A stretch of 39,869 nucleotides of DNA from an uncultured Clostridia bacterium (GCA_946627565.1 CAMOVR010000014.1:1-39869), one strand, 5' to 3'. Positions 7,286 through 38,000 are shown, numbered from the stretch's first letter. Numbers and translations: made by a program. The notes: generated by a model from the sequence alone, not told the origin.

Positions 7286-7313
7286 CCAGTCCATGGAAAG
7301 GGGGCTGAAACAC

Positions 7314-8732
7314 TTGCAGCGGTGGCTTCGCAGCATCAGGAATCACCGGGGCGATCTCGTGGTTGGGTTGCTGAAGACCGTCACGTATTTTGGCCTGTTC
7401 GCCATTTTCTTCTGGCTCATGTCCATAAACAATTTCCAGCTGAAGGGCCCCTCCCGTACCCTGGCGACAACGGTGATCACATGGTGCGCCATGACCATCG
7501 GCATGCACGGGATCTACGGGGGCTATGACATAGGGCGGAAAAAGAGCAAGCCCATTATAGCCAACATGACGCTGGCCGTGGGCATCACGGACATGGTGAC
7601 ATATCTGCAGCTGCAGATCATGAACGTCAATGCCAACAAGAATGCTACGCTGGAATTCTTCGGACAGGATTTCCCGTACCTGGTGGCCGTTTACCCTCTG
7701 CAGATCCTGTTTCTGGTCTTCATTGTCCGTTACGGGAATCACCGGTTCTTTTCCATCTATCCCCCAAAGCGCTGTATCCTGATTCTGGGGGACATGGATG
7801 ACAAGGAGAGAATCATAGACAAGCTCAATCATTTCCGCCTGCAGTGGAAGGTCATGGATGCCGCCACATGGGAAGCACCGAACCTGAAGCAGCGCATAGA
7901 AGCGGCGGAAGTGGTTTTTATTGCCACGGTGCCGGAAAAGGAAGCCATGCACCTTCTGCAGATCTGCTATGACCTGCACCGGGATGTGCTGTGCAAGGCC
8001 CAGCTGCAGGACATCATGCTTTCCAGTGCCCAGCAGGTGGTCATCGACGATGCGCCTTTCCTGGAAATGGATTACCATAAGATGACCCTGTTCCAGAGAA
8101 TCGTCAAGCGCATCACCGACGTGGTCCTCTCTTCCCTGGTTCTGGTGCTCTTCTCGCCCCTCATGCTGCTCATCTCCCTGGCCATATGGTATGAGGACCG
8201 GGGGCCGGCCATTTTCCGGCAGCCCAGGATGACCATCGGGGGCAGGAACTTCATCATCTATAAGTTCCGCACCATGTATGTGCACCACGACGCCTTTGAA
8301 GTGTCCGCCACGGAGGATGATCCCAGAATCACAAAGGTGGGGCGCTTTCTGAGACGGACAAGGCTGGATGAACTGCCTCAGTTCTATAACATTCTCAAGG
8401 GTGACATGACCCTGGTGGGGCCCAGGCCTGAAATGCTGGACAATGTGGAAAAGTACAAGTCCGGCATGCCCACCTTCGTATACCGGGAAAAGGTGAAGGC
8501 CGGCCTGACAGGATATGCCCAGATTGAGGGCAAGTACAATACCAGCCCCGAGGACAAGCTCATGCTGGACCTGCTGTACATTGAAAACTTCTCCCTGATC
8601 AATGATGTCAGGCTCCTGTTCAGAACCCTGACGGTGATCTTCCGGGCAGACTCCACCGAAGGTTTCCACAGGAACCAGGCGGAGGGGACCGGGGGAAAGA
8701 AAGGAAAGAAGCGCAGGCGCGGGCATGCATGA
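7314..8732 (+). CDS. Polyprenyl-phosphate sugar phosphotransferase (exopolysaccharide priming transferase family)
   Basis: C-terminal bacterial sugar transferase motifs: IVKRITDVVLSSLVLVLFSPLMLLISLAIWYEDRGPAIFRQPRMTIGGRNFIIYKFRTMYV..., LRRTRLDELPQFYNILKGDMTLVGPRPEM. ORF call begins at 7293; TTG at 7314 has an SD (aaaggggg) and fits the promoter better. Confidence 0.9.
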   Translation: MQRWLRSIRNHRGDLVVGLLKTVTYFGLFAIFFWLMSINNFQLKGPSRTLATTVITWCAMTIGMHGIYGGYDIGRKKSKPIIANMTLAVGITDMVTYLQLQIMNVNANKNATLEFFGQDFPYLVAVYPLQILFLVFIVRYGNHRFFSIYPPKRCILILGDMDDKERIIDKLNHFRLQWKVMDAATWEAPNLKQRIEAAEVVFIATVPEKEAMHLLQICYDLHRDVLCKAQLQDIMLSSAQQVVIDDAPFLEMDYHKMTLFQRIVKRITDVVLSSLVLVLFSPLMLLISLAIWYEDRGPAIFRQPRMTIGGRNFIIYKFRTMYVHHDAFEVSATEDDPRITKVGRFLRRTRLDELPQFYNILKGDMTLVGPRPEMLDNVEKYKSGMPTFVYREKVKAGLTGYAQIEGKYNTSPEDKLMLDLLYIENFSLINDVRLLFRTLTVIFRADSTEGFHRNQAEGTGGKKGKKRRRGHA

Positions 8733-8792
8733 GCATACAGCGTTCTTAAACCAATGGGTATTTCATGAATAGACAGATATGGAGATGAAGGT

Positions 8793-9695
8793 ATGAGTTT
8801 GACACTTCTGATCATGGCTGCCGGCATGGGTTCCCGGTACGGCGGCAACAAGCAGGTGGACCGTATCGGACCGGACGGGGAGATCCTGATGGAGTATTCC
8901 ATCTATGACGCCCTTCAGGCCGGGTTTGACAAGGTGGTATTCGTCATCAAGCCGGAGATGGCTGAGTCCTTCCGGGAAATGGTGGGGGACAAGATTGCCC
9001 GCCGGGCAGAAGTGGCCTATGCCTTCCAGGATTATTCCTCCCTGCCCGCCGGCTTTACCGTGCCCGAGGGCCGCACCAAGCCCTACGGCACCGTCCATGC
9101 GGTGCTCTGCGCCAGGGATGTCATCCATGAGCCCTTTGCGGTGATCAACGCAGATGACTACTATGGCCGTGACGCCTTTACCGCCATGGCGAAAGCCCTT
9201 TCTTCCATGAAGGGTGCCGAGGCGGCCATGGTGGCATATGACCTGCACAACACGATCTCCGAAAACGGTTCCGTGACGCGCGGCGTATGCGAAAAGGATG
9301 AGCAGGGCCGTCTTAAGAAGGTCACGGAGACCTACAAGATCATGAAGGCGGAGGACGGCACCATCCGTGACTTTGAAAGCAGTCAGGAAGGTGTGATCCT
9401 GGATCCCAATGCCCTGGTGTCCATGAACTTCTGGGGCTTCACTCCCTGGTTCTTTGAAAGAGCAGGGGAACGCTTTGAAGAGTTCCTGAAGCACGCAGAC
9501 GCCAATCCCCTCAAGTGTGAGTATGTGCTGCCCACCCTGGTGGACGAGCTCATGCGGGAGGACGGCATGCCGGTACAGGTGCTGAACACCCATGCGGTAT
9601 GGTTCGGCATGACCTACCGGGAGGACCGCCCCTATGTGATGGAGGAGCTGAAGAAGCTCCATGATTCCGGTTTCTACCCGCCGACTCTGGGATAA
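8793..9695 (+). CDS. Sugar-phosphate nucleotidyltransferase-like protein
   Basis: LLIMAAGMGSRYGGNKQVDRIGPDGEILMEYSIYDA (NTP_transferase signature) and AVINADDYYGRDAF. Confidence 0.85.
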   Translation: MSLTLLIMAAGMGSRYGGNKQVDRIGPDGEILMEYSIYDALQAGFDKVVFVIKPEMAESFREMVGDKIARRAEVAYAFQDYSSLPAGFTVPEGRTKPYGTVHAVLCARDVIHEPFAVINADDYYGRDAFTAMAKALSSMKGAEAAMVAYDLHNTISENGSVTRGVCEKDEQGRLKKVTETYKIMKAEDGTIRDFESSQEGVILDPNALVSMNFWGFTPWFFERAGERFEEFLKHADANPLKCEYVLPTLVDELMREDGMPVQVLNTHAVWFGMTYREDRPYVMEELKKLHDSGFYPPTLG

Positions 9696-9718
9696 AACAG
9701 ACGAAGGAGAAATATACC

Positions 9719-10735
9719 ATGCATATTCTGACAACAGGCGGAGCCGGGTTCATCGGCTCGCATACCTGTGTGGCACTTCTGGAAGCAGGCCACAGCGTGA
9801 CGGTGGTGGACAATTTCGTCAACAGCCAGAAGGAAGCTGTAAGACGGGTGGAGGAACTGACGGGAAAAAGCATAAAGCTGTATGAAGCCGACTGCTGCGA
9901 CAGGGACGCCATGGAGAAGATCTTTGACGAGAATCATTTTGACGCCGTCATCCATTTTGCCGGTCTGAAGGCTGTGGGCGAGAGCGTGCAGCAGCCCCTG
10001 AGGTATTACCGCAACAACATCGACTCTGCCCTGACGGTATGCGAGGTCATGGGACGGCACGGCTGCAAGCGCATCGTCTTTTCCTCCTCTGCCACGGTCT
10101 ACGGCGTGCCGGATGAAGTGCCCCTGAGGGAAGACATGTTCTGCAAGGGCTGCACCAATCCCTACGGCTGGACCAAGTACATGATCGAGAAGATCCTCAT
10201 GGGTCTGTGCGATTCGGACCCCGAGTGGTCCGTGGTTCTGCTCAGGTACTTCAATCCCATCGGTGCCCACGAGTCCGGCAGGATCGGCGAGAACCCCAAC
10301 GGCATTCCCAACAACCTCATGCCCTTTATCACCAAGGTGGCTGTGGGTCAGCTGGATCACCTGAATGTCTTCGGCAATGACTATGACACCCCCGACGGAA
10401 CCGGCGTGCGGGATTACATCCACGTGGTGGACCTGGCCAGGGGACACGTGCATGCCTGCGACTATGCCATGACCCGCACGGGCTGCGACATCATCAACCT
10501 GGGAACCGGCGTGGGATACAGCGTGCTGGACATTGTCAACACCTTTGAAAAGGTCAACGGCATCAAGGTGCCCTACGTTATCGGACCCCGCAGGGCCGGC
10601 GACGTGGCTGCCTGCTATGCGGATCCGAAAAAGGCTGCGGAAGTGCTCCACTGGAAGGCGGAAAAGAGCCTGGAGGACATGTGCAGGGATTCCTGGAGAT
10701 GGCAGAAGAACAATCCCAACGGCTATTCAGCGTAA
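9719..10735 (+). CDS. galE: UDP-glucose 4-epimerase
   Basis: MHILTTGGAGFIGSHTCVALLEAGHSVTVVDNF, SSSATVYG, PYGWTKYMIEKIL, LLRYFNPIGAHESGRIGE. Confidence 0.96.
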   Translation: MHILTTGGAGFIGSHTCVALLEAGHSVTVVDNFVNSQKEAVRRVEELTGKSIKLYEADCCDRDAMEKIFDENHFDAVIHFAGLKAVGESVQQPLRYYRNNIDSALTVCEVMGRHGCKRIVFSSSATVYGVPDEVPLREDMFCKGCTNPYGWTKYMIEKILMGLCDSDPEWSVVLLRYFNPIGAHESGRIGENPNGIPNNLMPFITKVAVGQLDHLNVFGNDYDTPDGTGVRDYIHVVDLARGHVHACDYAMTRTGCDIINLGTGVGYSVLDIVNTFEKVNGIKVPYVIGPRRAGDVAACYADPKKAAEVLHWKAEKSLEDMCRDSWRWQKNNPNGYSA

Positions 10736-10742
10736 CATCTGA

Positions 10743-10774
10743 GGCAGGTGCGGCGACGCCCTGCCCATTTTCTT
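10743..10774 (+). terminator. Probable Rho-independent terminator after galE
   Basis: GGCAGG-t-GCG-GCGA-CGC-CCTGCC hairpin with GNRA-type loop followed by atttTctt. Confidence 0.6.
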
Positions 10775-10818
10775 AACAAGTTTATGTATCAGACCTTTTT
10801 GAAAAGGAGGACGGGGCC

Positions 10819-12633
10819 GTGAAATGCACGCTGTTTGCTGTGGGCCGGGCCGGAGCCCGTGCTGCCCGCTCCCTGGTAGAGGGCGTCATGACGGGCCTGG
10901 TGAAGGCGGACAGCCTTTCCCTGGTGCTGATCGGAATCCGGCAGGATGACAGGGAAAGCCTGGAGAGGCTCCTTACCCCCTTAAAGCGGCTGTACCGGGA
11001 GGAAAACGGAGCGCCGTTCTTTTCCACCCCTGTCACGGCCCTGATCCTGCCTGAGGAAGAGATGGACGAGAGCCTCATGGAGAAATGCCAGACCCCGGAG
11101 GACAAGCTGCTTATGGCGTCCCTGTTTTCCGGGGACAGGACCCTGAGGCGCTCTGCAGGCTCCTCCATGGAGACGGCCCAGACAGCCTGGGCGGACCTGC
11201 TTAACGGGGACAACGAGGTGGTTAAGGCCATACAGAAGCTTTCGGAAGAAGACGGTCCGGTGCTCATGGCCGCATCCCTGACCGAACCCCTGGGGGCCGC
11301 CGGATGCGGCCTTATGCAGAAGGAAATCCGGAAATACTTCCATGGACCTCTTTGCGGCGTGTTCGGCCTTAAGATCCGCAAGAAGGACCGGACGGACCTG
11401 GCTGCATCCGCCCTGCGGGAGATATCGCAGATGGACGGCCTGTATATCTTCGGCCTGCCGGATGACGCGGCCACCGACGGCGACGGCATAGAGGAACTGG
11501 TGGGCCTAAGGTGCATGGCGGACTTTCTTGAGGGCGGCCGGGGCTGCTTTTCCTATGCCGTTCCCCTGGATACACCGGACTGGTCCATGTTCGGGGACAG
11601 GGCAGAAAAGTGGGAAGCGGCCCTTACGGATTTCCTGTATGCCTCCCTGTTTATGCTGGTGAGGTACGGACCCGAGGCGGACGAGCGGCTGCGTGTGGGG
11701 GGAAACCTGTCCATGCGGGGCTGGTTTGGCCGGGTGTACGGGAAGGCCCGCAGCGATACCGGGTACACGGCCCGGGAAAAGGAAATCCTGCATGCCCTGC
11801 TTTCCGTGTGCCGCTATTTCACCGCCTGGTGCTATGTCACCACCGGAAACCTGCCCCTGAGCCTCAGGTGCCAGGCCCAGCTGCTGGAAACCATGGACAG
11901 TGCCGGGGTACTGTATGACCGGATCCTGGAAGAAGCGGGCCAGCTGAGTTTACTTAACTATGATCTGAAGTGTGCAGGCCTTCTGGATGACGAGACCGTT
12001 TCCCGCAGCAGTCAGGAGGTCACCGAGGCGGAGAATGCCAGAAAGAAAATCACCCGGCAGGCGGAGAAGGTCAAGAACATGGCGGAGGAACTCCGGGCCA
12101 TGGAACAGATCATGGGAGGCCGCAACACCCTGATCCTCCTGGAGGACAGGGCTGCAAATACCCTGAAGGAAGCGGAAAACCTGGAACAGCAGGGCAGGGA
12201 AGCGGAAAGACGCATCGGGGAGGCTGCCATGACGGCAGGCCCGGAGGACATGCCCAGAATCGACGCAGCCAGGAGCCGGCTCAGGGGTCTGGAAAGGCAC
12301 CTGATGTACCTGCGGGGCAAGGCTGCCTATGCCAGGCGTGACCTGGAGGAAGCAAGGAAGGAAGAAAACCGGTCCAGGCCGCCCAGGGCATCCCTGGCGG
12401 CGGAGGATCCGGATGTGCTCTATGAGCGGCGCTATCTCAGACAGGTGCTGAAGGCGGTGGACACCGGGAGCGATGTGCGCCGGTCCGGACCGGCGCTTCT
12501 GGAGAGCATGCAGCGCTTTGACGCCCGGGAGATCCTGGACCGTCTGGAACGCAACGCGGAAACGGCAGAAGGCACCATGGGACTGTTTGAAACGCTGTAC
12601 GCGCTGATAAGCATGGAAAGAGAGGGGAGGTAA
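10819..12633 (+). CDS. Uncharacterised protein; candidate divergent tubulin-like N-terminal region plus coiled-coil C-terminus
   Basis: GTG start with AAAGGAGG SD; N-terminus MKCTLFAVGRAGARAARSLVEG, later SLTEPLGAAGCGLMQKEIRKYF; strongly heptad-like region EVTEAENARKKITRQAEKVKNMAEELRAMEQIM... Tubulin relation is hypothetical. Confidence 0.85.
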   Translation: MKCTLFAVGRAGARAARSLVEGVMTGLVKADSLSLVLIGIRQDDRESLERLLTPLKRLYREENGAPFFSTPVTALILPEEEMDESLMEKCQTPEDKLLMASLFSGDRTLRRSAGSSMETAQTAWADLLNGDNEVVKAIQKLSEEDGPVLMAASLTEPLGAAGCGLMQKEIRKYFHGPLCGVFGLKIRKKDRTDLAASALREISQMDGLYIFGLPDDAATDGDGIEELVGLRCMADFLEGGRGCFSYAVPLDTPDWSMFGDRAEKWEAALTDFLYASLFMLVRYGPEADERLRVGGNLSMRGWFGRVYGKARSDTGYTAREKEILHALLSVCRYFTAWCYVTTGNLPLSLRCQAQLLETMDSAGVLYDRILEEAGQLSLLNYDLKCAGLLDDETVSRSSQEVTEAENARKKITRQAEKVKNMAEELRAMEQIMGGRNTLILLEDRAANTLKEAENLEQQGREAERRIGEAAMTAGPEDMPRIDAARSRLRGLERHLMYLRGKAAYARRDLEEARKEENRSRPPRASLAAEDPDVLYERRYLRQVLKAVDTGSDVRRSGPALLESMQRFDAREILDRLERNAETAEGTMGLFETLYALISMEREGR

Positions 12634-12637
12634 GGGT

Positions 12638-15600
12638 ATGGCAGAAAGTACGCATTTTCTGAACTGGCTGCCCGACGAAAAGGGCCTGGTGGTACTTGAA
12701 GCCCATGCAGGTCCCGTGCGGGCCGAACACCCTGAAACCTTCCTGAAGGATATCATGGGGGCCATGGAAGCGGGAGAAGAGTCCGCCGGGATCCGGGCAA
12801 TTCGCCATGAGCTGGCAGGCGGGGATGAAAAGCGCCTGCGGGCATGGCGCGGCCTTATGGCTTTTGCCCTGCTGTCTGACATGCTTGTGGAGGAGAGCGT
12901 CAGGATCCATGCCGTGCGGGCGGAGAGCGGAGCCCTCTGCCGGTCGGTGCTGGAGGTCATGGGGGAAGAGGAGATCATGCTTCTCTCCGTCAAAGAGGGG
13001 AATAAGGACCTGCCCCTTGGCATGACCGACAGCCGTTTCCTGCTGATTCCCTCCCGGGCCATGGAGCGGGACCATACCGTGGCCTTCGGCATGCTTCCCT
13101 GGTACACGGACGCGGGTTTTGACGACCCCCTTCCACATCTTGACCCCATGATGAGGAATGCCCTTCTCACCAGGCTCAGGGCCGCGGGCGGGGGCAGGGA
13201 AGTTCAGGTATTCTTAAAGGATCTTGAGGCCGCCCAGGAAAAAGCCGTGAAGGAAGCCTCCGCAAAGGGCAGATGGGACAGCCATTTCAAGAGCGTCACC
13301 GGCCTTATGGGGGAGAAGGGTTTTGAAGAGCTCGCGGTCCGAGTTATCCCGGGAAAGGTGACGGATGGATGCCCCCTGCTTCAGGCCCTGCATGTGGAGG
13401 ACCCGGTGAAGACCGTTCCGGACCAGCGTGTCTACAGCTTCCGGGACAGGGAGATCGCCAGGGAAAGCCCCGTATGCCTGCTGGAATTCGGCCGCGGGGA
13501 AAAGGCGGCGGAAGCCCTGTTTGAACTGAGTCTGGACCAGCAGATCCTGGAAACCTGTGTCCGGCCCTATGCTGCCGCACTTGCGGAGCGCATGCGGCGC
13601 AGGAGCGCCGGGACATGCGATGAGCGGGTCCGCAGCCATGTGCTGGAAATGGCAGGTGCACTGGAAGAACTTTCCGCAAGACAGACAGGGAATATATCCC
13701 TGACCTATCCCTGGCGGGCGGAATCTCCCGCCCTGATGAACCTTCTGGAGGAAACCCTGGGCAGCAGCCTGGTGCCTGCCGCCCTGTCACCCTTTTCAGA
13801 CCGCCTGACCCTCATGACCGGGGCGTCCTTTGCAGACCCCATGATGGAGCGCAGCTGCACCTTCAGCTGGGAGGGAGGACAGTATCTTGTGCTGCCGCCC
13901 ATTTCCGCTGACCTGGCCAGATGGGAAGCCGAGCGGGGGGACAGCCTGCAGGGATATATGCCCGACAGCCTTCGTTTTTCCATGGAACCCTCCGGACAGG
14001 TGACGGTCACCTTTTCCATACAGGGGGAAAACGGGAGCATCTCGGTGAAGCGCACCTATACGGACATGGAACAGGTGATTCTCCGGGAAAACCAGATTCC
14101 GGACCTGACACTGTGGCCCTCTGTGCCGGTGCCCGGCAGCTGGAAGGCATATTACCTGTCCCTGCGGGGACGCATCTGCCTTAAGGTCTGGGACAGCAGG
14201 GATGAGAAGTTCCAGACCCTGACATCTGACACGGATGAGGACGGCAATTTCCTGCCCCCTGTTCTCTTAAGGGTATCTTCATTCCCGTCTGTCATGGTGG
14301 TTTCCAGAAACGACCTGACACTGGGTGCCCTGTTTTATGCGCCGGAGCCTGCCCGCCCCATGGAGGGGGGCGATGCGGTATGCGCACTGGATATAGGGGA
14401 GAGCGGCACAGCCATGGCCGTGCGGAGCGACAGCGGCATGGAGCGGGTGAGCCTGCCGCCCATGGCAGGGAAGATCTGGCACGGGACGGGCAATGCCGAC
14501 CCGGCTGCGGAAGTCCTGCCCATGGAAGGAAAAGGCCCCCTGGTGGAATCCGCGGTGCAGCTCATGCCCGGGGAGGGCACCGAGCCCTTCAGGGACGGAG
14601 CCATCTGCCCCGTCTCCCGGATCCTTTCGGTACATCCCTGCTGCCATTTCCTTTGGAGGACGGATCCGGACGGGATCCGGGCCCAGCGCATCCTGCTGCG
14701 CCAGCTCATGCTGGAAGTCTGCCTGAATCAGGCCATGCAGGGCAGGTCGTCCGTCACCTGGCGGCTTTCCGTGCCCCACAGCGCCAGCCAGGAAGACTGG
14801 GGCCGCCTGGAAAAGGAAGCCCAGAGCGCCGCAAGGGACGTGCAGAACCTGTGCGGTATGCCCTGCAGGGGCATTGCCTCAGCATGGCACGATACCAGGG
14901 CTGCGGGGCAGTACCTGTATCAGGCCATGAACCGCACTTCTTTCCTCATGCTGGACCTTGGCGGCGGGGACGCGGCCATTGCCCTGTGGCTTAGGGGTAT
15001 GCCGGGGCCGGTGCTGGAGATGGATGCCGGGGACGGGTTCGCCCTTGCCTGGCATACCGCCTTTCTGGATATTCCGCTTACAGCGGCTCAGGACATGCGG
15101 CGGTTCACATACCTTGATAACGGGAATTTTACAGAAAGCCTTCTCCGCTCCCGGGACTCCGTTTTGGACTGGGAAAAGAGCCGGCATTTTGTGGATCTGC
15201 TGCTGGGACCGTATCTGCAGGAAACCATAGGGGCACTCTCCCAGGCCCTCATGTCCGGCACGGGAGATTACAGCCAGGCCCTGCTTCTCCTGGAAATGTG
15301 CCGGAAAATGGTGCTGTGCGGGCTGGCTGTGGAGGAAGCGGGAAACACTTCCACCCTGGTGGACAGGCTGCCGGAAACCCTGCCCGTGGTGCTGTGCGGC
15401 CGGGGCAGCCAGATCTATATGGTACTGCCCGAGAACCTGAAAAACGCCCTGATGCGCTTTGCGTATCTCCCCATGCGGGAGTCGCTGCCGGTGAAGCGGA
15501 TGATGCTTCAGATGAGCCCGGAAAACAAGATGGAAGCCGCCTTCGGCCTGCTTCTGCAGGAAAAGCGGGAGGATACCAGGGCCAGGATCACGGCGTGCCG

Positions 15601-15862
15601 GAATACCGTCCCGCTGGACTGGCTGCTTGGGAACTTCATCATGCTCTTTGGGAGTCTCTTCCCCCAGATGGCATCCCTGCTCTTTCCGGGGGCCCTGCGG
15701 CCTGACGGGGTGCTTTCGGATGTGTACGCCAACCAGATTATAGGCCTGTCTGCCATCTGGCAGGGGGATGACATGGAGGAGGCCCTCCGGGGCTGCCTCC
15801 AGAGACTGCGGGCCTGGCCTGCCACGGCCCCGGTTTCCATGCAGACGGCAGCACCCACATAA
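12638..15862 (+). CDS. Large uncharacterised protein with C-terminal actin/Hsp70-like ATPase fold
   Basis: Phosphate-1-like CALDIGESGTAMAV, phosphate-2-like LMLDLGGGDAAIALW, adenosine-motif-like VVLCGRGSQIYMV in correct order; SD aggggagg and 4-nt gap to upstream gene indicate co-translation. Confidence 0.85.
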   Translation: MAESTHFLNWLPDEKGLVVLEAHAGPVRAEHPETFLKDIMGAMEAGEESAGIRAIRHELAGGDEKRLRAWRGLMAFALLSDMLVEESVRIHAVRAESGALCRSVLEVMGEEEIMLLSVKEGNKDLPLGMTDSRFLLIPSRAMERDHTVAFGMLPWYTDAGFDDPLPHLDPMMRNALLTRLRAAGGGREVQVFLKDLEAAQEKAVKEASAKGRWDSHFKSVTGLMGEKGFEELAVRVIPGKVTDGCPLLQALHVEDPVKTVPDQRVYSFRDREIARESPVCLLEFGRGEKAAEALFELSLDQQILETCVRPYAAALAERMRRRSAGTCDERVRSHVLEMAGALEELSARQTGNISLTYPWRAESPALMNLLEETLGSSLVPAALSPFSDRLTLMTGASFADPMMERSCTFSWEGGQYLVLPPISADLARWEAERGDSLQGYMPDSLRFSMEPSGQVTVTFSIQGENGSISVKRTYTDMEQVILRENQIPDLTLWPSVPVPGSWKAYYLSLRGRICLKVWDSRDEKFQTLTSDTDEDGNFLPPVLLRVSSFPSVMVVSRNDLTLGALFYAPEPARPMEGGDAVCALDIGESGTAMAVRSDSGMERVSLPPMAGKIWHGTGNADPAAEVLPMEGKGPLVESAVQLMPGEGTEPFRDGAICPVSRILSVHPCCHFLWRTDPDGIRAQRILLRQLMLEVCLNQAMQGRSSVTWRLSVPHSASQEDWGRLEKEAQSAARDVQNLCGMPCRGIASAWHDTRAAGQYLYQAMNRTSFLMLDLGGGDAAIALWLRGMPGPVLEMDAGDGFALAWHTAFLDIPLTAAQDMRRFTYLDNGNFTESLLRSRDSVLDWEKSRHFVDLLLGPYLQETIGALSQALMSGTGDYSQALLLLEMCRKMVLCGLAVEEAGNTSTLVDRLPETLPVVLCGRGSQIYMVLPENLKNALMRFAYLPMRESLPVKRMMLQMSPENKMEAAFGLLLQEKREDTRARITACRNTVPLDWLLGNFIMLFGSLFPQMASLLFPGALRPDGVLSDVYANQIIGLSAIWQGDDMEEALRGCLQRLRAWPATAPVSMQTAAPT

Positions 15863-15873
15863 GCAGTCTTTAC

Positions 15874-15900
15874 GGGACAGTCTCAGGGCTGTCCCTTTTC
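15874..15900 (+). terminator. Rho-independent terminator of the two-gene unit
   Basis: GGGACAG-tctcaggg-CTGTCCC followed by TTTTC. Confidence 0.8.
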
Positions 15901-16074: not shown

Positions 16075-17597
<1,523 letters not shown>

Positions 17598-19359: not shown

Positions 19360-21222
19360 ATGCCGGAGACGATCAAGAAACATAAGACAGCTGTCAGGTG
19401 GGTGATCCTGGTGGTCGCAGCCCTGCTTATGGCTGTGGGTCTGGAAGCTCTGCAGCTGCACCTGCTCCCTCCCATCTTCACGGATATGGACGTGACCATC
19501 ATCAAAGACCCTGACCTGCTGGAAACATCCAGGACATATCTGCATGAAAGCGGAAGAACGGCGCTGGTGGAACAATGGGATGCCCTGCGGCTCTTTTTTA
19601 CCTTCCTCATGCAGCTGATCCTCCTGGTGGTGCTCTTTCCCCTGGGTCTGATGAAATATCTGCTGAACGGACTGAAAAAAGGGTTTTCCTCCCTTGTATC
19701 CGCCCTTTCGGCTTCCTGGCGCCGGGATCTTCTGCTTCTTGGTATTTTTGCTGCAAGCGCCGCCGCCATGTTTTTCCTGACCAGGTTCCTGGTGGTGTAC
19801 CTGTACCATAAGGCGGAGAGCAACTGGATGATTGACCTGTTCTCCCTGCTGTGCGGCATCTCCCTGGCCATGATGGCGACTTTCCGGCAAACCCTTTCGA
19901 AAAAGCCGGAGATCTTCTTTCTGGCGTTCATGATCATGATCGGGGGCCTCATGTCCTTCCTTATGCCCGCCAGTTCCGTGGTGGCCTGGGACGACGGCTT
20001 CCATTACCAGCACGCCCTGAACTTTTCTACCATGGGCCATGTGCGCTACACCCAGGCGGATATGGACGCCATGGATGCGGCCAATGTGAAAATCTATGCC
20101 CTGGGCGAGGAAAGGGATGCGTTTCTGAAAGCAAGGGACGAGGCCAATGCGAAGGGCTCCGTCTACGTGACGGTGGGCTTTCACATGCAGCCCAAGGAGG
20201 TCTGGATGGCCTTCTATGGCCTGGGCCTGTTCCTGGGAAGGCTCTTCCATCTCAGCTACTGGCTGACCTGGTCCCTGGGCCGCTTTACCGGCCTTCTGGC
20301 CTACAGCATCATCGGGTACTTTGCCATAAGGAGGCTTAAGTCGGGCAAGCTGATCCTGGCTTCTGTCCTCATGATCCCCGAGGCCATCTTCCTGGCCAGC
20401 AATTACAGCTATGACCCCTCGGTTACCTGCTGTCTGGCTCTGCTGTTTGCCTATTTCACGGCCCAGTGGCAGGAAAAGGGGATCATTTCGGAAAAAGACC
20501 AGCTGGTCATGATTCTTTCCGGTTTCTTTGGCTGTCTTGCCAAGGCCATCTACTTTCCCATCGTGCTCCTGCCCCTGCTTCTGCCAAAAAGCCGGTTCCG
20601 GGACGGGAAAGCCTGGAAGCGCTTTATCTATGGTGTGCTGCTTGCCGTGTTCCTGCTGCTGGTTTCCTTTGTCCTGCCCTTCATCTTCAGTGACGGGACC
20701 GGGGATACCCGGGGCGGGGACGGGGTCAACGCCTTCGGGCAGGTGGCCTTTATCCTGGGCAATCCCCTGAAGTACACGGAGATCCTGCTGAACTTCCTGA
20801 GGGAATACCTGAATGTGAACTATATGAACGGGGCCCTGACCTTCTTTGCCTACATGGGCAGCGCTCCCAACGGCATCCTGTGCCTGATTCTTCTGGCCGT
20901 TGCAGCCTTTACGGATCGGGGCGAAGCGGATGAAAAGCCGGGACCCGGCATCCGGGTCATTGTGCTGCTGTTTGCGGCGGCCACCATTGTGCTGCTGACC
21001 ACCGCCCTGTATGTCTCCTATAATCCGGTAGGGTCCGAGGGCATAGGCGGGGTGCAGCCCAGGTACCTGCTGCCCCTGATGTATCCCATCCTGGCCATGC
21101 TGGGATCCGGGAATATACGCAATTCCATTCCCAGGGGCTGGTATAACGGCGTCTGCCTCGGCATATGCGGCTATATGGGCTTTGTGTCGGTGCTGCATAC
21201 CTGCATTGTATATTACAACTGA
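19360..21222 (+). CDS. DUF2142-like polytopic membrane protein
   Basis: Multiple TM helices and the extracytoplasmic segment 'SSVVAWDDGFHYQHALNFSTMGHVRYTQ' resembling the DUF2142 family; RBS ggaggt. Confidence 0.75.
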   Translation: MPETIKKHKTAVRWVILVVAALLMAVGLEALQLHLLPPIFTDMDVTIIKDPDLLETSRTYLHESGRTALVEQWDALRLFFTFLMQLILLVVLFPLGLMKYLLNGLKKGFSSLVSALSASWRRDLLLLGIFAASAAAMFFLTRFLVVYLYHKAESNWMIDLFSLLCGISLAMMATFRQTLSKKPEIFFLAFMIMIGGLMSFLMPASSVVAWDDGFHYQHALNFSTMGHVRYTQADMDAMDAANVKIYALGEERDAFLKARDEANAKGSVYVTVGFHMQPKEVWMAFYGLGLFLGRLFHLSYWLTWSLGRFTGLLAYSIIGYFAIRRLKSGKLILASVLMIPEAIFLASNYSYDPSVTCCLALLFAYFTAQWQEKGIISEKDQLVMILSGFFGCLAKAIYFPIVLLPLLLPKSRFRDGKAWKRFIYGVLLAVFLLLVSFVLPFIFSDGTGDTRGGDGVNAFGQVAFILGNPLKYTEILLNFLREYLNVNYMNGALTFFAYMGSAPNGILCLILLAVAAFTDRGEADEKPGPGIRVIVLLFAAATIVLLTTALYVSYNPVGSEGIGGVQPRYLLPLMYPILAMLGSGNIRNSIPRGWYNGVCLGICGYMGFVSVLHTCIVYYN

Positions 21223-28760: not shown

Positions 28761-29024
28761 AAATGCAATATTAAGAAGAAATGTCAATACTTGCGCAATG
28801 CTGTTTCTTGATTTTACATGCAATTCGGCGTATCATTCGTTGTGAAAATATGCAGATCTATAAGAAAGTGCAAACCATGGATCCAGGCATTCTGAAGCCT
28901 CTGCCGGATACATGTTGTACCCTTAAGAACAGAGAAAACATTGAGATCTGCGGTACATAACTGACAGCTGTAATGAAGAAAAATAAGGATTCCAGAAGCT
29001 GCGTTTGTTACTGAATGCCCGTGC

Positions 29025-29057
29025 CGGATTTGGGATTTTATCCAAATCCCAAATCCG
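29025..29057 (+). repeat. Perfect 14-bp inverted repeat/hairpin in the 5' leader of the giant surface protein gene
   Basis: CGGATTTGGGATTT-tatcc-AAATCCCAAATCCG, ending 29 nt before the ATG at 29087. Confidence 0.9.
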
Positions 29058-29086
29058 CGCTGTGTCCTGAGAGGAAGCATGATCAT

Positions 29087-32000
29087 ATGACGAAGTACAG
29101 GATCGTATCGCTGCTGTTGGCTTTTGTGTTGGTTTTCCAGACTTTACCCCTTGAATTATCCGGGGCGGAGGGATGGAATGAAGTCGTTTCCGTAGAATAC
29201 AAGGCAGACACCCGCCATCTGGTTGTTTTTCTTGCGGACAATATGGAAATGGCCCGTTTGTATGCGTTGGACGGGAGTTGTCTGAACAGTCTTCCTGAAG
29301 CCCCTGAGAAAGATGGGGCGACCTTTGAAGGCTGGTTTGCAGATGGCAGGGAATTTACGGAAGATACGGTGATTCATGCAGATATACAGGTCACTGCCGT
29401 CTATTCCAATTCCGGAATACTTCTTTCGGAACAGATGGAAGAAGCAGAAATACCCTATGTTTCCGCTGCCATGGAGTCGGATCTGGATGCCGATGTCATC
29501 TCTGAATATGTAGAGCCGGTTATGACAGCCATTTCCGGGGATCCCATTGCCGTGCTTTCTGGTGAAAATGTGGAAATAGGGATCCTGGATGGCAGTGTGC
29601 CGGGCATGACGGAAGTTAACTTTGAAAAGTACGATGAAGAAAAGACAGAATACCTGGTTTCCTCATATGCCCTTGCGCAGGAGCAGGAAGGGCTTTTGGT
29701 CTCCGGGTATTCTGCCTTTTCCGTATCCATGCAAGACAGGACCTGTCCGGAAGACGGTCTTTATAACGTGAAGGTAAATCTTGACGTGGATCCTGAAAGC
29801 ATCCTTCCGGAGCGGACTGTGAAGCAGGATACGCAGTATGAGGTCTTCCGTCTGCTGGAGAGCGGGACAGAACGGATTGACGCATCCATGCAGGACGGGA
29901 TGCTTGTCTTTACCACGGAGCAACTCGGGACCTTTATCCTGCGCTATACCGTGGAATATGTCTATGAGAAGGCAGAGGTTACCCTGGATCTGTCCGGATA
30001 CGCAGAACTGGGATACAGCGTTCCCGGAATTGAATACGATTTTGATCTGGGCAGGGCGGCTATTTACCCGGTCTCCTTCCTGGAAAACGCGAGTTCAGAC
30101 GAAGAAGATAACCCGGTATATACCCTTACTCTGCCGGAAGGTATGGCCTGGAGTATGTTTGATGCTGCCTTCCTGGAGGAAGCGTCTGTTCTGACAGAGG
30201 GAAACGGTATCCTGTACGAGGACGGACAGATCCTGCTTACAGAGAGCATGGAAGAAGCATCTGTTCTTTTTGAAAAGGATATTGACAGCATTGTGTTTAC
30301 GATCTCGGGTTTTACAAAACCAGAGAGACCTGTTCTTCCGGAAACCAGAGATTTCAGCTTCAGGATGCTTTCTGATTCAGTTGAAATAAAGGATATCCTG
30401 ACAGAAAACGGGATCATTTCGCCTACTTTCAGGATAACCGGTCTGTCTGACAGCAATCTTGTTTCCGTGGAAGGTGAAACCCTGGTGGCGCACAACTTCT
30501 TTGGGGAAGTGGTGCTGTCCCTGGCACTTTCTGATGGAACGCTTATTCAGATCCGACTGAACCATCCGGGTCCTGTGCCGGCAGGGGAGAAAGTCATTTC
30601 TGAAGCAGGCTCCTTTACTGCAAAGACACAGGTTCCTGCAGGTACTGCCCTTTCCGTAAAGGCAGCTGAACCGTCTGAAGAAGAAATAGCCATGGTGGAG
30701 CAGGCTGTGTTGGAAACCCTGGGAGAAGCTGCCCAGCCCGTCCTCTGGTTTGACATTTCCCTTATAGGACCTGATGGGGAACCGATCCAGACAGGTGCAG
30801 AACTTGTGTTGAACACAGATGTGGAGCTTCCCCAGGCACCAGCAGGCAGGAATGCCAGGGTCAAAGAGATTTGTGTGTACCATCTGAAGGATGGAGAACT
30901 GGAAGTTATTGACGATGCAGAATGTGCCGTTGCGGATGGGAAAATCTGCTCCATAAGCTTCTCTACAGAGGGATTCTCCACGTTTGCTGTTTCCTATACC
31001 GTGGATTTCCACTGGGAAGTGGATGGGCGGATGTACGAGTTTTCACTCCCCGGAGGCGGATTTATCAGCTTTTCTGAGCTTATGGAGGTGCTTGGGGTCG
31101 CAAAAACGGATGAAAATGAGGAAAATGAGGCCAAAAATGACGATGTCCAATTGCCCGGGGAAGTACCGGGTATAGATAATCAAGATGAAAATGGGGAAAA
31201 AGGTACCTCGGTGGGTGCCGAAAACGCCGAAAATCAGGGCAATTCCGATGTCTACCTGGCAGGGGAAGAGACAGGTATAGAGAATCAGGATGCAACGGCG
31301 CTCACACTGGATGGTGTGGTGGTGTCTGAGGATACCTGGGAGTTTGTGAGGGATGTTGAGAGCGTGGTGTTCTCAAGCCCGGATCTGGTCTGGGTCGGGA
31401 AGGTTGATGAAGAGAGTAAGGTAGGAGGAATTAAAGAGAGCATAGGGTTGGAGGCTCAGTATAGTGCTGAACTGACAGAGGAGCAGATCGATAGAATTAA
31501 TGGAACTGTGGTCGAGTCCGGAGACTGGGCTTTGATTAGTGTGCAGCCGTTTGAGAGTACGGAGAGTTTGACCGTGACCATGAAGACCGGAGAGGTCTTT
31601 GAGATTCGTGTGACGGATGCTCAGCTGAAGAAGACAGTGATTTCAGCATCTGGCGAGACTTATGAGATTATTGTAACATATGATGACAGTGCGGAGATTC
31701 CGGAAGGCGCAGATCTGACGGTGACTGAATATGCTGAAGACAGCAAAGAATACAAAGAAGCATGTGAGGCGGTTGTCTCTCAAAAGGAACAGGAAGACGA
31801 TTCCTTTGACGAGAATACGTTCGGCATGTCTGCCTTTGATATTTCAATTATTGATTCCGAAGAGAAGATAGTTGAACCGAAGGCTCCTGTAAGTGTTACT
31901 ATAACTATTAAGGTTTTGCCGGAGGAAGTAGTTGCAGGAAATTTACAAGAATCATTGGAAATCCAACATCTGGATACCAGTGAAGAAGATCTCGTTGTAG

Positions 32001-35000
32001 ATACAGTGGCATCTGTGTTTGAAGGCAACATGGAAGCTGACGAAGATACTGCACGAGCTGAGTTCGTTTTGAATAGTTTCTCCACATTTACGGTAAGCTG
32101 GAATAGCGCGGGGACAAATAATAGCACAACTGTATTAGGATGGCGTTATCGGGAAAACTGGGGGGATCCTTATACTAATCGAGCATTTTTCACAGCCCGT
32201 TATGTTGATGAAAACGGAAATGGAATAACAAGACCAAATGAAGTGGGATATACCATTAATAATGATAATTTCTATGATGGAGCAGAGTATACAGTCGATA
32301 TTAGTAGCACGTTAGGAAAAAATATCAATAATTACACCTATAAATCTGCATATATTACGGATTCAGATGGAGTAAAGCATACCGTGACCTCTGTTAAAGC
32401 AGAACGTCATGGAGATACTTCGACCATTACATATTATAATGATTCCGAAATAGTTAAGTCTGCAAATTATACAGGGACAGACAGACATAATTTTGATGCA
32501 GATGGGTTGGATTTGACCATCGAATACGAGAGCAATAATCACATAACTGTCCACTATGGATATATGGAAGACGGAGTATTCCATGAGTTTGACGAGCAAC
32601 CCTATCCTACTGACACATCGACAGGATATGGCTGGGCATATCTTATCTACGATTTTAATGGCACAGACGGAAGCGGAAGAGATTTTACTTACGACTATTC
32701 TGGAACTTACTATAATACCGGGGAGGCGACAGATCCAACAGACGGAACCGAGGCAGAGCCTCTTTTAAGGTACTACAACGGTAGTTGGCGTTACTATGCC
32801 AGCAGTAACGGGCGTACAGGAAATGCTCTCCGGAACAACGGAAATTGGACAAGTGTTTCTAATGACAGCCATGTTTACGTGGTTTACGAGAGACCTTCAA
32901 TTCCGGAAGGAGGGACGTCTAAAATTGACGAGGTTGCCTCTACGCCCGATATTCCTGCGATTTTAAAGCAGTCTGATGAAAATGGTGATGGAACGAATAC
33001 CTTGTCGCTCAGTGTGACAGGCTCTCAGAAGGATATTGTTGCCGAAAAACTTGCAGACGTTATCGTGGTTCTTGACCTTTCGTCGTCCATGCAGAAGGGT
33101 ATTAGCAACAACAGCAGTGACAGTGGCTATCTCACCAACCCTAACTCTCGCTATAATCAGGCGAAGAGTGCACTCATCAGCTTTGCTGATATACTATATA
33201 AGAAGAACGAAGACAGCGGGAAAGATCTGATCCGAATGGGACTGATCACATTCTCAGGGAACGCTCATGTGCGGCAGGAACTGACAGCAGATGAGGATAC
33301 CTTTGATGCTGCGGTCAATGCGATCACAAGATATGAGGGAAAGGGAACAAACTGGGAACACGGACTGAAGCTGGCCAATGAGATGGCTACTGATTCAGAC
33401 CGCATGACCTTCGTTGTCTTTATTACTGACGGTGAGCCTACTTCATCTCAGACACGTTATGGATTAACTAACAGCAGGCTGCAGAATGTTATTTTTAATC
33501 CTGGAACAACTGGAGGAGGTGTTCCTCAGCAGTATACACAAAACAGTGCACATGTTATTTCATATGATCCTATGCATTTCTATCTGGAAACAGGATCGTT
33601 TGGAACAACAAACACTGGGCAGCCTGGTATATTTACAGATAATGGAGTCACGCTGAGCGGCGACTACATGTATAACCATGCGGCATATGATGATGTGCAA
33701 TCGATTACGGAGCACAATAAGAATTTTTATACGATTGCTATTTCCAGTGAAGTTGGTACCGATGCTTTGAGCGCATTGCTTGATGCGGCGGGGGTTCCAT
33801 CAGATCATGGTATTCCTGCAAGCACTCCCAAGCAGTTGACTGATGCGTTTGATGAGATTCTTGACGACATCAAACTGGAAGGAACCCGTGGATGGAGCGA
33901 TGTCAGAATGTCCGATGGTATCACCGATCTGACCAACACTATTGACAAGGTAAACCAGGTCGAGCACCGGCTCTACGATGTGGATGGGAATTTCGTTTAT
34001 TATAAGTCAACAAAGCCGGATGGATGGAGTACTTGGTCAGCGGATCAGAAGTCGGCCTATTTGGCAGGCGTTGAATACGCTGAGCGTGATGATACCCCGG
34101 ACGGATACGACGACTGGACCAATGAACAGAAATCAGCCTATGCTTTGGGAAAGGCAGTTCAGTTTACAGAATGGACTTCGCGTGAGGAAGATGGCTGTGC
34201 AGAAGCAGTATATAATACTGTAACCGGTGCCGTTGAATGGAACATGGGCAGCGCGTTCATGCTTGAAGATGGTGTTACCTACAAAGTATCTTTCATTTGC
34301 TGGCCAAGCCAGGAAGCTTACGATATTATAGCCAAACTTAATAACGGAACCATTACCTTTGGGGATACAGATGTTTATAGTCAGGATATCTGGGATCAAT
34401 TCGAGGGTAATGCTACGGATGGCTATACCCTCAAAACCAATGCAGATGGTGCAAATACAACTTACAAAACAGCCACGAAGATAGATACTGTAACAACATC
34501 AGGAGATCCGCAGACGCTGTTATTTGGTGAGGTTCCGAATCTCAATCTGTCCGAACAGAAGATTTACATCCATAAGGATTGGAAGAACTCACTGGATAAT
34601 GAGTCTGAGGATAGCGTTAACCTGGGCGTAATAGCTGACGGGGATGAGGACGATCTTTATAAAACAATCACGGTCGGTGCTAATGATGATCCCGACTTGG
34701 ATTGGCGGGGAGACGCGTTCGTTTCCACAGGGCTTCTAAAGGTTGAGTCTGGCGAGATGACACTCTACGAATCTGGCCATGACTTTACTATCACAGAGAA
34801 TGTGGAAGGTGGACCTAACTATAACTGGGATCTTACAACAGATACTTACCGTCCTATGGTCATCACAGATCCGAGTAAAGGATATGAAACAACAACGGTA
34901 ATTCTGAAGAAAGTGGCGAGTACGGACGAGTATGATTATCAGATCGGTGATGCGTATTATGCTATTGTCACGGATTCAAACAATGCTTTGAATGCGGTCA

Positions 35001-38000
35001 ACCACAGACGAAGCCACGTGGAAATTGTGAAGAACGTTGAAGGGGATGATGCTCCGGAGAATAGTCGTTTTACATTCACTATTGAAGTAACTGACAGTAA
35101 AGCCGATTCAGGTGACATTAATAATACGGATTCTGATGCATGGGTGTGGTTCTCAATTTATGATAGTGACGGGCAATTAGTGACTACGGTAAGTCTTGAC
35201 GACATTAATTTCGTCACTGCAAATAACCTTAGGTATGAGCTGATCAATGGTGACGATAAATCAGTTGTCGACGAAGTAGATGAGACAAATATCGCTTACT
35301 ATTCGGGATATTGTTGCGTGCCTTCAGGGACAACAATTACAGCCAAACTTCCAAGTGGTTACAAATTGGATGTCATCAATTTGCCTGTTGATTCTGTGTG
35401 CATAATTACAGAACCTGAGGACGAAATACCTGCAGGATACAGCATTGAGGGTATTGTAGAAACAAGAACGTATCATGATGAGGAGGATGAAGAGCAGGAA
35501 GAGCCAATACAAACGACTAATACCAACACGATCACTGTTACGATTGGATATAATGAATCAACCTATAAAGTAGATGTTAATAATCAATGGGATACAGTTG
35601 ATGTTCCCGTGGATAAGACCTGGCCTGATATTGACGATGATGATAGCTATACCTGGACAGCTACATTTGTACTGGAAGAAATCGAGGTACATGAGAGCGG
35701 CCCGGATAGCTCTGAGGCGAATACTACAGCTTTCCATGCGGTTGATGGGGTAATACCAATCACTATTTCCAAGGGTGATAGTGGAGATGATATACCCTTT
35801 AAGAACCTGCCGAAATATCGGTATTATGATGTAGAAGGAGAGCAAAGTATCTACAGAATCATATATTCCGTAGATGAGACAGCTTACGAGTTGAAGCAGA
35901 ATGGTACCACAGTCAGTAAGTGGGATAAAACCCATGGGTTGACGGAGGGTACAGAGATATATGTACCGGAGTGGCCCCACGATGCCGGCGATACGGATGA
36001 TGAGATGCATTTGTCTGAGGATGATGAACTGTTCTACCATGTAATTGTCCAGAACCATAAAAAGGATGAAAAAATCATTGAGACTTTAACAGGTCTGGAG
36101 CTTCACAAACAGTGGGAAGATGGTGCATTTGACGATGTTCAAGAGGAGGATGCATTTGCAACATTCCAGTTAAAGCGTTATGTTACAAGAGAGCATTTGG
36201 ATTATACAAGTGATTATGATGGCTCCGATGCTACGGTGACGTTGATTGGTCAGGATGGTAATACGGATACTCTTACAGTGAAGAAGGGTGCCAGAGTTAA
36301 TGTGGTGGCCACCTTTAGTGGAGTCGGTACAGTACAGTACAAAAACACTACGACTAATGAAACTTTCACGATGTCTCGTTCGTGGTCTGGTGATGATGCT
36401 AATAAAGTAAGTGTGGCCATTCCGATTGCGGGTGATACAACTATTGAACATGATAATCAAACCGGGCATCAATCTGGAATCGTCGATGAAGACCATCTTG
36501 TGCTTGACACAGGTGCAGGGTCTGAAACAAGTGAAGATACCGATTTTACGAACGAAAGACATTATTATACCCTCGACTTGGACGGAGAATGGACTCAGAG
36601 CATAGACCATTTGCCGTTGTACTCGGAAGGCTCGATTAACGAAACTGCGAATGGTTACAGCCAGACAGTTTATCATTACAGCTACTATTTTTCAGAGATA
36701 GATTTCCATCCGTCAGGCTTCTATTCAGAATTCACCGATGGACATGGAAATCCTGTTGGAGATGCTGCGCATCGGATTACAGAGGATGACACAACTGTAT
36801 TAGCCCTGAATAAAAAGATCCCGCCCTTCTATGTCAAGAAAGAGTGGCATGATATTGAGGATCCGGATAATTACCCGGAAGTGCGCTTTACTTTGTATCA
36901 GGGTCTCAGGAATGGAGATGATGTATCAGAAGGAAGTATATTCGTTGGATCCAATGGCGAGAGCTATGTGGATATACCTTTGAATTCGGATAATAATTGG
37001 ACATGGAAGTGTCCTGGTTTCTTGCCGACAAAAAATGCAAGCGGTCAGGATGTAGGCTATTATGCTGTTGAGAACACTGGTAATGATAATAATCATCGAC
37101 AGGTTCTTCTATACAACAACAGCGAACTTAATGAGGATGGATCCATAAAAGTTGCTGGGGAAGAGATAACCACAAGCCAGCAGACAAAAGACGAAGTATG
37201 GCTCTGGAATTATTACAATGACAAGAACAGTAATACGGCTTACCGGAACGACCAGCAGATGCCAAGAGGATGGGATGGTGGTATCGGAGGCAATACCGGT
37301 ACACTGACCATTGTCAACCGTTCACCCAAGTATATGCAGATGGACATCAAGAAAAAGATCATGGAGTATCAAGATGATGGAAGTCTTGCGACAACTACTG
37401 GATGGCCAAGCAGAACAAGAGATATTGTACTTAAGATCCAGCTGATGCGCCGCATTTACCTGGCTGATGCGCCGGTGGATGCTGAACCGTTGGTAAAATG
37501 GACAAATTATGGGGTGCCATTCTATGTGGGCTATGATTCTGAGGGCCATGATGTTGCCCTGAATGATAATGATTTTGATGTCGGTGTTGGTTTGAGTTCG
37601 TGGCATTGGACGATTCTGGATCAGAACCAGGAGAACGGTTTACCTGCGTATGGCTATTACACAAAGCCTGATGGGACGGTTGTCAAAGTCCATTACCGCT
37701 ATATCCCGTTTGAGATCGGCGCATACAGCAATACGAATGAAGACCCGATTGATCCGCAGTTTGACTGGTTTATTGGCTTACAGCCAAATGCCTGGGACGG
37801 TGCACATGGTCAGGTGCCGACATTTGCTCCACTTGTGGGTCAGGATCAGGATCGTCTGATGAATGTGCAGGCATCCGACCTTGAAGTTGATAAGGATTGG
37901 ACGGAAACCCCGGACAATGTGGAGGAAGTGTATGTAAAGATTTACCGTCAGGCCAGTGGAGGAGCAGTTGAAGACTTCACCAACGACATAGCCACAAGAA

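Follow-up and report, generated by a model that had tools for sequence, protein, structure and literature searches.

Two adjacent genes of an uncultured Clostridia bacterium from the rumen, here denoted P1 and P2, code for a divergent protein that very probably belongs to the tubulin superfamily and for a large protein that almost certainly belongs to the actin/Hsp70 superfamily. Tubulin-like and actin-like filament proteins usually constitute separate systems, and their familiar pairing is the FtsZ-FtsA divisome, in which a tubulin-like and an actin-like protein encoded by adjacent genes act together. The consistent pairing of P1 and P2 in dozens of related species and their fusion in one genus point to an undescribed membrane-associated scaffold apart from the cell-division machinery. 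The reading favored here, to which a probability of about 0.5 is assigned, is that the pair represents a diverged branch of the FtsZl1-type membrane systems in which an actin-like protein is an obligate partner, roughly FtsZ-FtsA-like and acting outside of division. The literature searched, which covers a minority of subscription papers, contained no account of a comparable tubulin-actin pairing.

Genetic organization of the P1-P2 locus

The term window denotes the whole stretch of DNA analyzed, 39,869 nucleotides in length (GCA_946627565.1, CAMOVR010000014.1:1-39869). P1 and P2 are real adjacent genes on the + strand, and both ORFs, which an earlier sequence-only reading had described as two large genes 4 nt apart, were confirmed with that spacing. 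The locus comprises the following features:

7293-10735, + strand: conserved upstream neighbors, encoding a Bac_transf sugar transferase (7293-8732), an NTP-transferase (8793-9695) and galE (9719-10735)
10740-10767, + strand: terminator-like hairpin in the gap between galE and P1 (-18.3 kcal/mol, z -2.76, T-rich tail)
10804-10810, + strand: AAGGAGG, resembling a ribosome-binding site, 5' of the P1 GTG (read from the sequence; spacing 8 nt)
10819-12633, + strand: P1, divergent tubulin/FtsZ-superfamily protein, 604 aa, GTG start (AF2 model, PDB fold search, Tubulin_2 matches of homologues)
12638-15862, + strand: P2, large protein with a C-terminal actin/Hsp70-type ATPase domain, 1074 aa, ATG start (AF2 model, PDB fold search)
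15874-15895, + strand: intrinsic terminator closing P2 (terminator scan; 9 pairs, TTTTCCGTTT)

The first two upstream neighbors were identified via Pfam, and galE was named from its sequence. In a folding calculation, 4 of 200 shuffled sequences were as stable as the hairpin behind galE (10740-10767); a strict ungapped terminator consensus scan misses it because the hairpin has a bulge. This structure may separate the pair from the sugar genes transcriptionally, and the neighborhood could therefore reflect chromosomal position rather than function. The hairpin and the clear terminator after P2 had both been proposed from the sequence, and both were found. The accompanying idea of a self-contained unit agrees with these terminator-like flanks but was overstated, since a sugar transferase, an NTP-transferase and galE precede P1 and P2 in a conserved arrangement.

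The gene after P2, recognized from its sequence as IMPDH, has its own promoter-like site, a sigma-70-like promoter (11/12) at 16075-16103. Farther downstream on the + strand, the window encodes a predicted membrane protein with a DUF2142 domain (19360-21222, E 3.9e-32) and a 3601-aa ORF with VWA (E 4.5e-13) and SpaA prealbumin-like (E 1.5e-10) domains (29015-39820), probably a giant surface adhesin.

Tubulin-like features of P1

Neither P1 nor P2 of the window yields a credible match in Pfam, NCBIfam, PHROGs, PADLOC or PDB sequences; their folds are assignable because relatives bridge to known families. Structure predictions were based on alignments of eight rows, taken from the window and related loci with the relatives from genome searches left out, and gave a P1 model with a mean pLDDT of 84.1 and a pTM of 0.79. 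The following regions are distinguished in P1:

10819-11529, + strand: N-terminal tubulin-like alpha/beta (Rossmann-type) domain, residues ~1-237 (AF2 model)
10840-10860, + strand: degenerate T1 loop VGRAGAR, residues 8-14 (aligned to GG[ST]Gx[KR] of deep homologues)
11275-11310, + strand: degenerate T4 signature loop SLTEPLGAAGCG, residues 153-164 (aligned to GSIFGGTGASGI)
11581-12372, + strand: long region of helices and coiled coil, residues 255-518 (AF2 model, DSSP)
12427-12621, + strand: helical region at the C-terminus, residues 537-601 (AF2 model, DSSP)

The N-terminal elements follow the order E2-8, H9-24, E32-40, H42-61, E72-78 and, further on, E148-153, H157-173, E178-183, H192-201, E207-211, H223-237. 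The sequence-only reading had made its proposal depend on a Rossmann/tubulin-like fold of this protein; the predicted model has such a domain, and FtsZ, CetZ or microtubule-structure chains make up 49 of the 50 matches listed in a PDB fold search (probability 0.99-1.00). CetZ2 and FtsZ rank at the top, with a modest best E of 1.5e-3. When the model was compared to a viral structure library, both matches with a probability of 1.00 were FtsZ-like.

Deep-branching P1 homologues are intact in both loops, with GG[ST]Gx[KR] at T1 and GGTGAS at T4, and have a DxD following the second strand. The corresponding loops of the window protein read VGRAGAR (T1) and EPLGAAG (T4), and both are degenerate across the window clade, while in genus g25 GGTG is kept by some members and lost in others. 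Judged from these alignments, the degenerate G-loops of the window clade are a derived state, deeper relatives being intact. The glycine-containing stretches quoted in the sequence-only reading align exactly with the intact loops of deeper homologues and thus represent eroded T1 and T4 loops; its description of a divergent tubulin-like protein with degenerate G-loops is, according to fold search and deep relatives, right for the window clade.

Among 12 diverse deep P1 homologues, 11 match Tubulin_2 weakly (best E 4.3e-7) and seven match Tubulin; a match to a non-tubulin family was found for none of them. Compared to classical Tubulin_2 proteins, the deep P1 profile scores an E of 9.8e-7 with a probability of 91%, spanning T1-T4. 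The link between P1 and Tubulin_2 is stated via intermediates, since the profile-profile match of the window clade alone is not significant. Window P1 has no match to PF13809, and relatives scanned individually reach 17-27 bits vs the curated cut-off of 27. By loops and cut-off, window P1 is not strictly a Tubulin_2 protein; it is of the same superfamily, and its deep relatives come close. Transmembrane segments were detected in neither P1 nor P2, the highest 19-residue hydropathy being about 1.5.

Actin/Hsp70-type ATPase domain of P2

The AF2 model of P2 (pLDDT 80.6, pTM 0.60) retrieved MamK (E 7.6e-6), actin, MreB, Hsp70, EutJ, and ParM in the PDB fold search with a probability of 1.00. About 575 residues, the last part of which is beta-rich, lie N-terminal to the ATPase domain:

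13952-14335, + strand: beta-rich region directly 5' of the ATPase domain, residues ~439-566 (AF2 model, DSSP)
14372-15553, + strand: actin-like nucleotide-binding domain, residues ~579-972 (limits estimated from secondary structure and motifs)
14390-14410, + strand: phosphate-1 motif DIGESGT, residues 585-591 (aligned to DFGTSNT of deep homologues)
14954-14971, + strand: phosphate-2 motif DLGGGD, residues 773-778 (aligned to DVGGGS(TD) of deep homologues)
15395-15409, + strand: adenosine motif CGRGS, residues 920-924 (aligned to AGNGG of deep homologues)

Deep P2 relatives harbor DFGTSNT, DVGGGSTD, and AGNGG in the same order as the window motifs. Their profile hits almost exclusively actin/Hsp70/MreB/FtsA-type chains among PDB sequences, weakly (best E 0.0046) and via the phosphate motifs. 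Fold and ordered motifs hence confirm the actin/Hsp70-like ATPase that had been suspected from the sequence. Matches of P2 to FtsA/SHS2 were obtained neither in Pfam nor in NCBIfam. In two congeners of the window (L037 and L043), the actin motifs of P2 are eroded alongside the tubulin loops of P1.

In the fold search, P2 matches the nucleotide-binding domains of Hsp70 and actin to a similar degree, a beta-rich region adjoins its ATPase domain, and the GTP loops of P1 are lost, all of which would suit a chaperone pair. In such a pair, P2 as an Hsp70-type ATPase would fold or assemble either P1 or a substrate in the envelope, with P1 serving as an adaptor rather than a cytoskeletal protein. This reading is nevertheless considered unlikely: window and deep P2 members show no Pfam HSP70 match and no C-terminal substrate-binding domain, the beta-rich region is situated before and not after the ATPase domain, and the natural 1:1 fusion to P1 is more in keeping with a structural partner than with a client.

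Pairing, fusion and distribution

Pairing was screened in 46 loci, 45 of which contain P2; locus L132, with a weak match only, to an Hsp70-like protein, was left out of this count. P1 is located directly upstream of P2, or fused to it, in all 41 loci that could be judged cleanly, the other four being two at contig ends (L081, L091), one with P1 fragments (L131) and one with P2 fragments (L090). In L131 (11246-12696) P1, and in L090 (9443-12628) P2, appears to be spread over several frames, through either decay or assembly error. In genus g27, P1 and P2 form one open frame of 1722-1756 codons in six genomes (L046, L047, L084, L087, L088, L097). Joint conservation of the two genes, on which the sequence-only reading had likewise staked its proposal, thus extends to every resolved locus and to fusion in one genus. 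Moreover, the evolutionary distances of P1 and P2 correlate given galE (partial r 0.54, 0/5000 permutations, 20 taxa). It is likely that the two proteins form a complex.

Relatives of P2 were detected in 37 of 150 genomes of the same family (9/50 genera) and relatives of P1 in 19 of 150, and every same-genus genome listed harbors both. A profile of near P1 members finds P1 upstream of distant P2 genes with E values of 4e-46 to 9e-60 (L048-L050), the P1 sequences of these three loci having been left out of the profile. Beyond the window's family the pair is rare, occurring in families f23 and f4 of the order and f50 and f73 of the class; the class-level counts are lower bounds, as one genome (G682) was missed by one search and found by a second profile. 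A contig scan with P2 alone returned no relatives, and one with a narrower alignment returned seven named loci. Those relatives that bear a name are MAGs of Clostridia; several carry a rumen label, and one is labeled Christensenella sp. UBA2853. The P2 tree mostly tracks genera, with long branches that leave the deepest forks unsure, and it fits a mainly vertical inheritance of the pair. Chance is considered an insufficient explanation of the observation, since entire genera share the pair and the quoted P1 stretches align with intact T1 and T4 loops.

Gene neighborhoods

The order lipoprotein - small multi-pass membrane protein - P1 - P2 is found in three genera of the window's family (g14, g15, g34) as well as in f23 and f73 (L125). 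A lipoprotein and a small membrane protein also precede the P1 fragments in f50 (L131); in f73 and f50 the membrane protein was assigned via position and hydrophobicity, not by profile. The upstream lipoprotein of the deep loci possesses a cysteine in a lipobox-like context, and its DxTxSM and VxxTD-like stretches recall vWA domains; it has no Pfam VWA match, and its comparison to vWA profiles is not significant. A vWA gene is absent beside the window pair, and the window's genus yielded no convincing homologue of the lipoprotein, a weak match in G076 covering only the N-terminal signal region.

The sugar transferase - NTP-transferase - galE - P1 - P2 order is present in 18 loci (six in g1, four each in g45 and g25, three in g27, and one named MAG), and in two further loci galE is present with one or both other sugar-block genes absent in the stretch read. 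The end of galE lies at most 162 bp from P1 in 18 of these 20 loci (overlapping in L101), and the gap amounts to 501 and 874 bp in two fused loci.

In genome G682 (L125, 8425-19001; L128, 147-4372), P1-P2 is followed by genes for a ZorA-like (padloc E 2.9e-11) and a ZorB-like protein (padloc E 4.9e-19) and by a gene of 1133 aa, a possible tubulin-actin-proton-motor operon.

This deep operon, with its Zorya-like layout, could indicate a defense or conflict system, in the form of a rapidly evolving module on the chromosome that would sense damage to the membrane and act against phages or stress. P1 and P2 evolve far faster than galE or IMPDH: between the window and L031, they share 45% and 47% identity, whereas galE and IMPDH of the same species pair share 86% and 92%. 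ZorAB-like genes occur, however, at this single locus, convincing padloc matches to P1, P2 or deep members are absent, and all listed genomes of the window's genus have the pair, whose distribution is mostly genus-bound instead of patchy. A defense role is therefore quite improbable.

Selection on the pair

Pairwise dN/dS values of P1 and P2 range from 0.10 to 0.35, so that the proteins are regarded as maintained by purifying selection. These values also bear on the suggestion that the pair of the window lineage is a decaying relic, deprived of its nucleotide sites and in the course of disappearing. The degeneration of both P1 loops, the eroded P2 motifs in L037 and L043, and the fragmented P2 of L090 would agree with decay; dN/dS within degenerate-loop pairs, however, is 0.10-0.33, ORFs of about 600 and 1070 codons are still open, and the pair is present in every listed congener. 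A relic is accordingly rated as very improbable.

Although tubulin-like and actin-like motors are among the known types of plasmid-segregation motors, a system for replicon or cargo segregation like TubZ or ParM is disfavored and has a very slim chance of being correct, given the absence of matches among 72,556 plasmid records (window P2), 50,697 phage records (deep P2) and viral contigs, the conserved galE-adjacent setting, and the lack of iteron-like repeats in the P1-P2 unit, where a DNA repeat search gave short coding matches only. Based on the same P2 searches of plasmid, phage and viral-contig records, an origin from plasmids, phages or viruses was rejected.

Comparison with known systems

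P1 resembles FtsZl1/Tubulin_2 proteins (PF13809; PMC2875224) in its FtsZ-like N-terminal domain, long coiled coil, and helical C-terminus. Further likenesses are the company of membrane proteins, possibly including a vWA-like protein, at the deep P1-P2 loci, and the presence of conventional FtsZ in the hosts. Unlike these proteins, window P1 is too diverged for PF13809 and lacks the GGTG[ST]G-type T4 and glycine-rich T1 loops; the window clade has lost both GTP loops and membrane genes, and an actin-like partner belongs to the P1-P2 system. The partners of FtsZl1 given in the main text of its description are vWA, GTPase, kinase, and OmpA proteins, none of them actin- or Hsp70-like (Makarova and Koonin, 2010; PMC2875224). 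Seven classical Tubulin_2 loci were inspected, and none contains a P2-like gene.

Ordinary FtsZ is also present in all ten hosts tested, and for this reason P1-P2 is not taken for a divisome. By analogy, the system would work most like FtsZ with FtsA, being neither. The gene order is reversed, the hosts already possess FtsZ, and no Pfam match to FtsA or FtsZ was obtained for either window protein, so that the comparison serves as a working analogy only. With Hsp70/DnaK and MreB/MamK/ParM, P2 shares the actin-type nucleotide-binding domain and its phosphate-1, phosphate-2, and adenosine motifs; it differs in the ~575 residues before this domain, in having no Hsp70 substrate-binding domain after it, and in showing no family-level Pfam match. 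The likeness to the ZorAB proton motors of Zorya is confined to the ZorA-/ZorB-like genes after P1-P2 in one deep operon (L125); such genes were not seen with the window pair or at the other loci examined, nor was any other Zorya gene.

Proposed mechanism

A mechanism at the membrane or envelope is given even odds. As an obligate pair, P1 and P2 would form a single complex on the cytoplasmic side of the membrane. Given that the deep branches retain intact nucleotide motifs in both proteins and encode, upstream, a small multi-pass membrane protein and a lipoprotein with vWA-like motifs, the machine probably began as an FtsZl1-type system for membrane remodeling or scaffolding that acquired an actin-like partner. 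Following the analogy to FtsZ-FtsA, P1 might polymerize into a scaffold, which P2 would gate or tether via ATP. In the window clade, the membrane genes were lost from the locus and the GTP-binding loops from P1, and the pair lies behind an envelope-polysaccharide block. There it probably forms an ATP-switched scaffold, which may organize sites of polysaccharide synthesis or export. In its fullest form the proposal is tentative: an undescribed cytoskeletal machine of obligate tubulin and actin-ATPase partners, fused in one genus, ancestrally associated with a lipoprotein and a membrane protein (once with a proton-motor pair), may have been recruited to envelope polysaccharide assembly, its tubulin half no longer binding GTP.

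If this holds true, P1-P2 would represent a second, independent pairing of tubulin-like and actin-like proteins, one that also occurs naturally as a single chain and in which the GTP site is lost by degrees within one family. It would permit a direct test of what a tubulin fold does without GTP, and of the control of tubulin-type scaffolds by an actin-type ATPase. For two gene families without a database match, which are apparently fixed in several genera of rumen metagenomes, it provides a candidate function.
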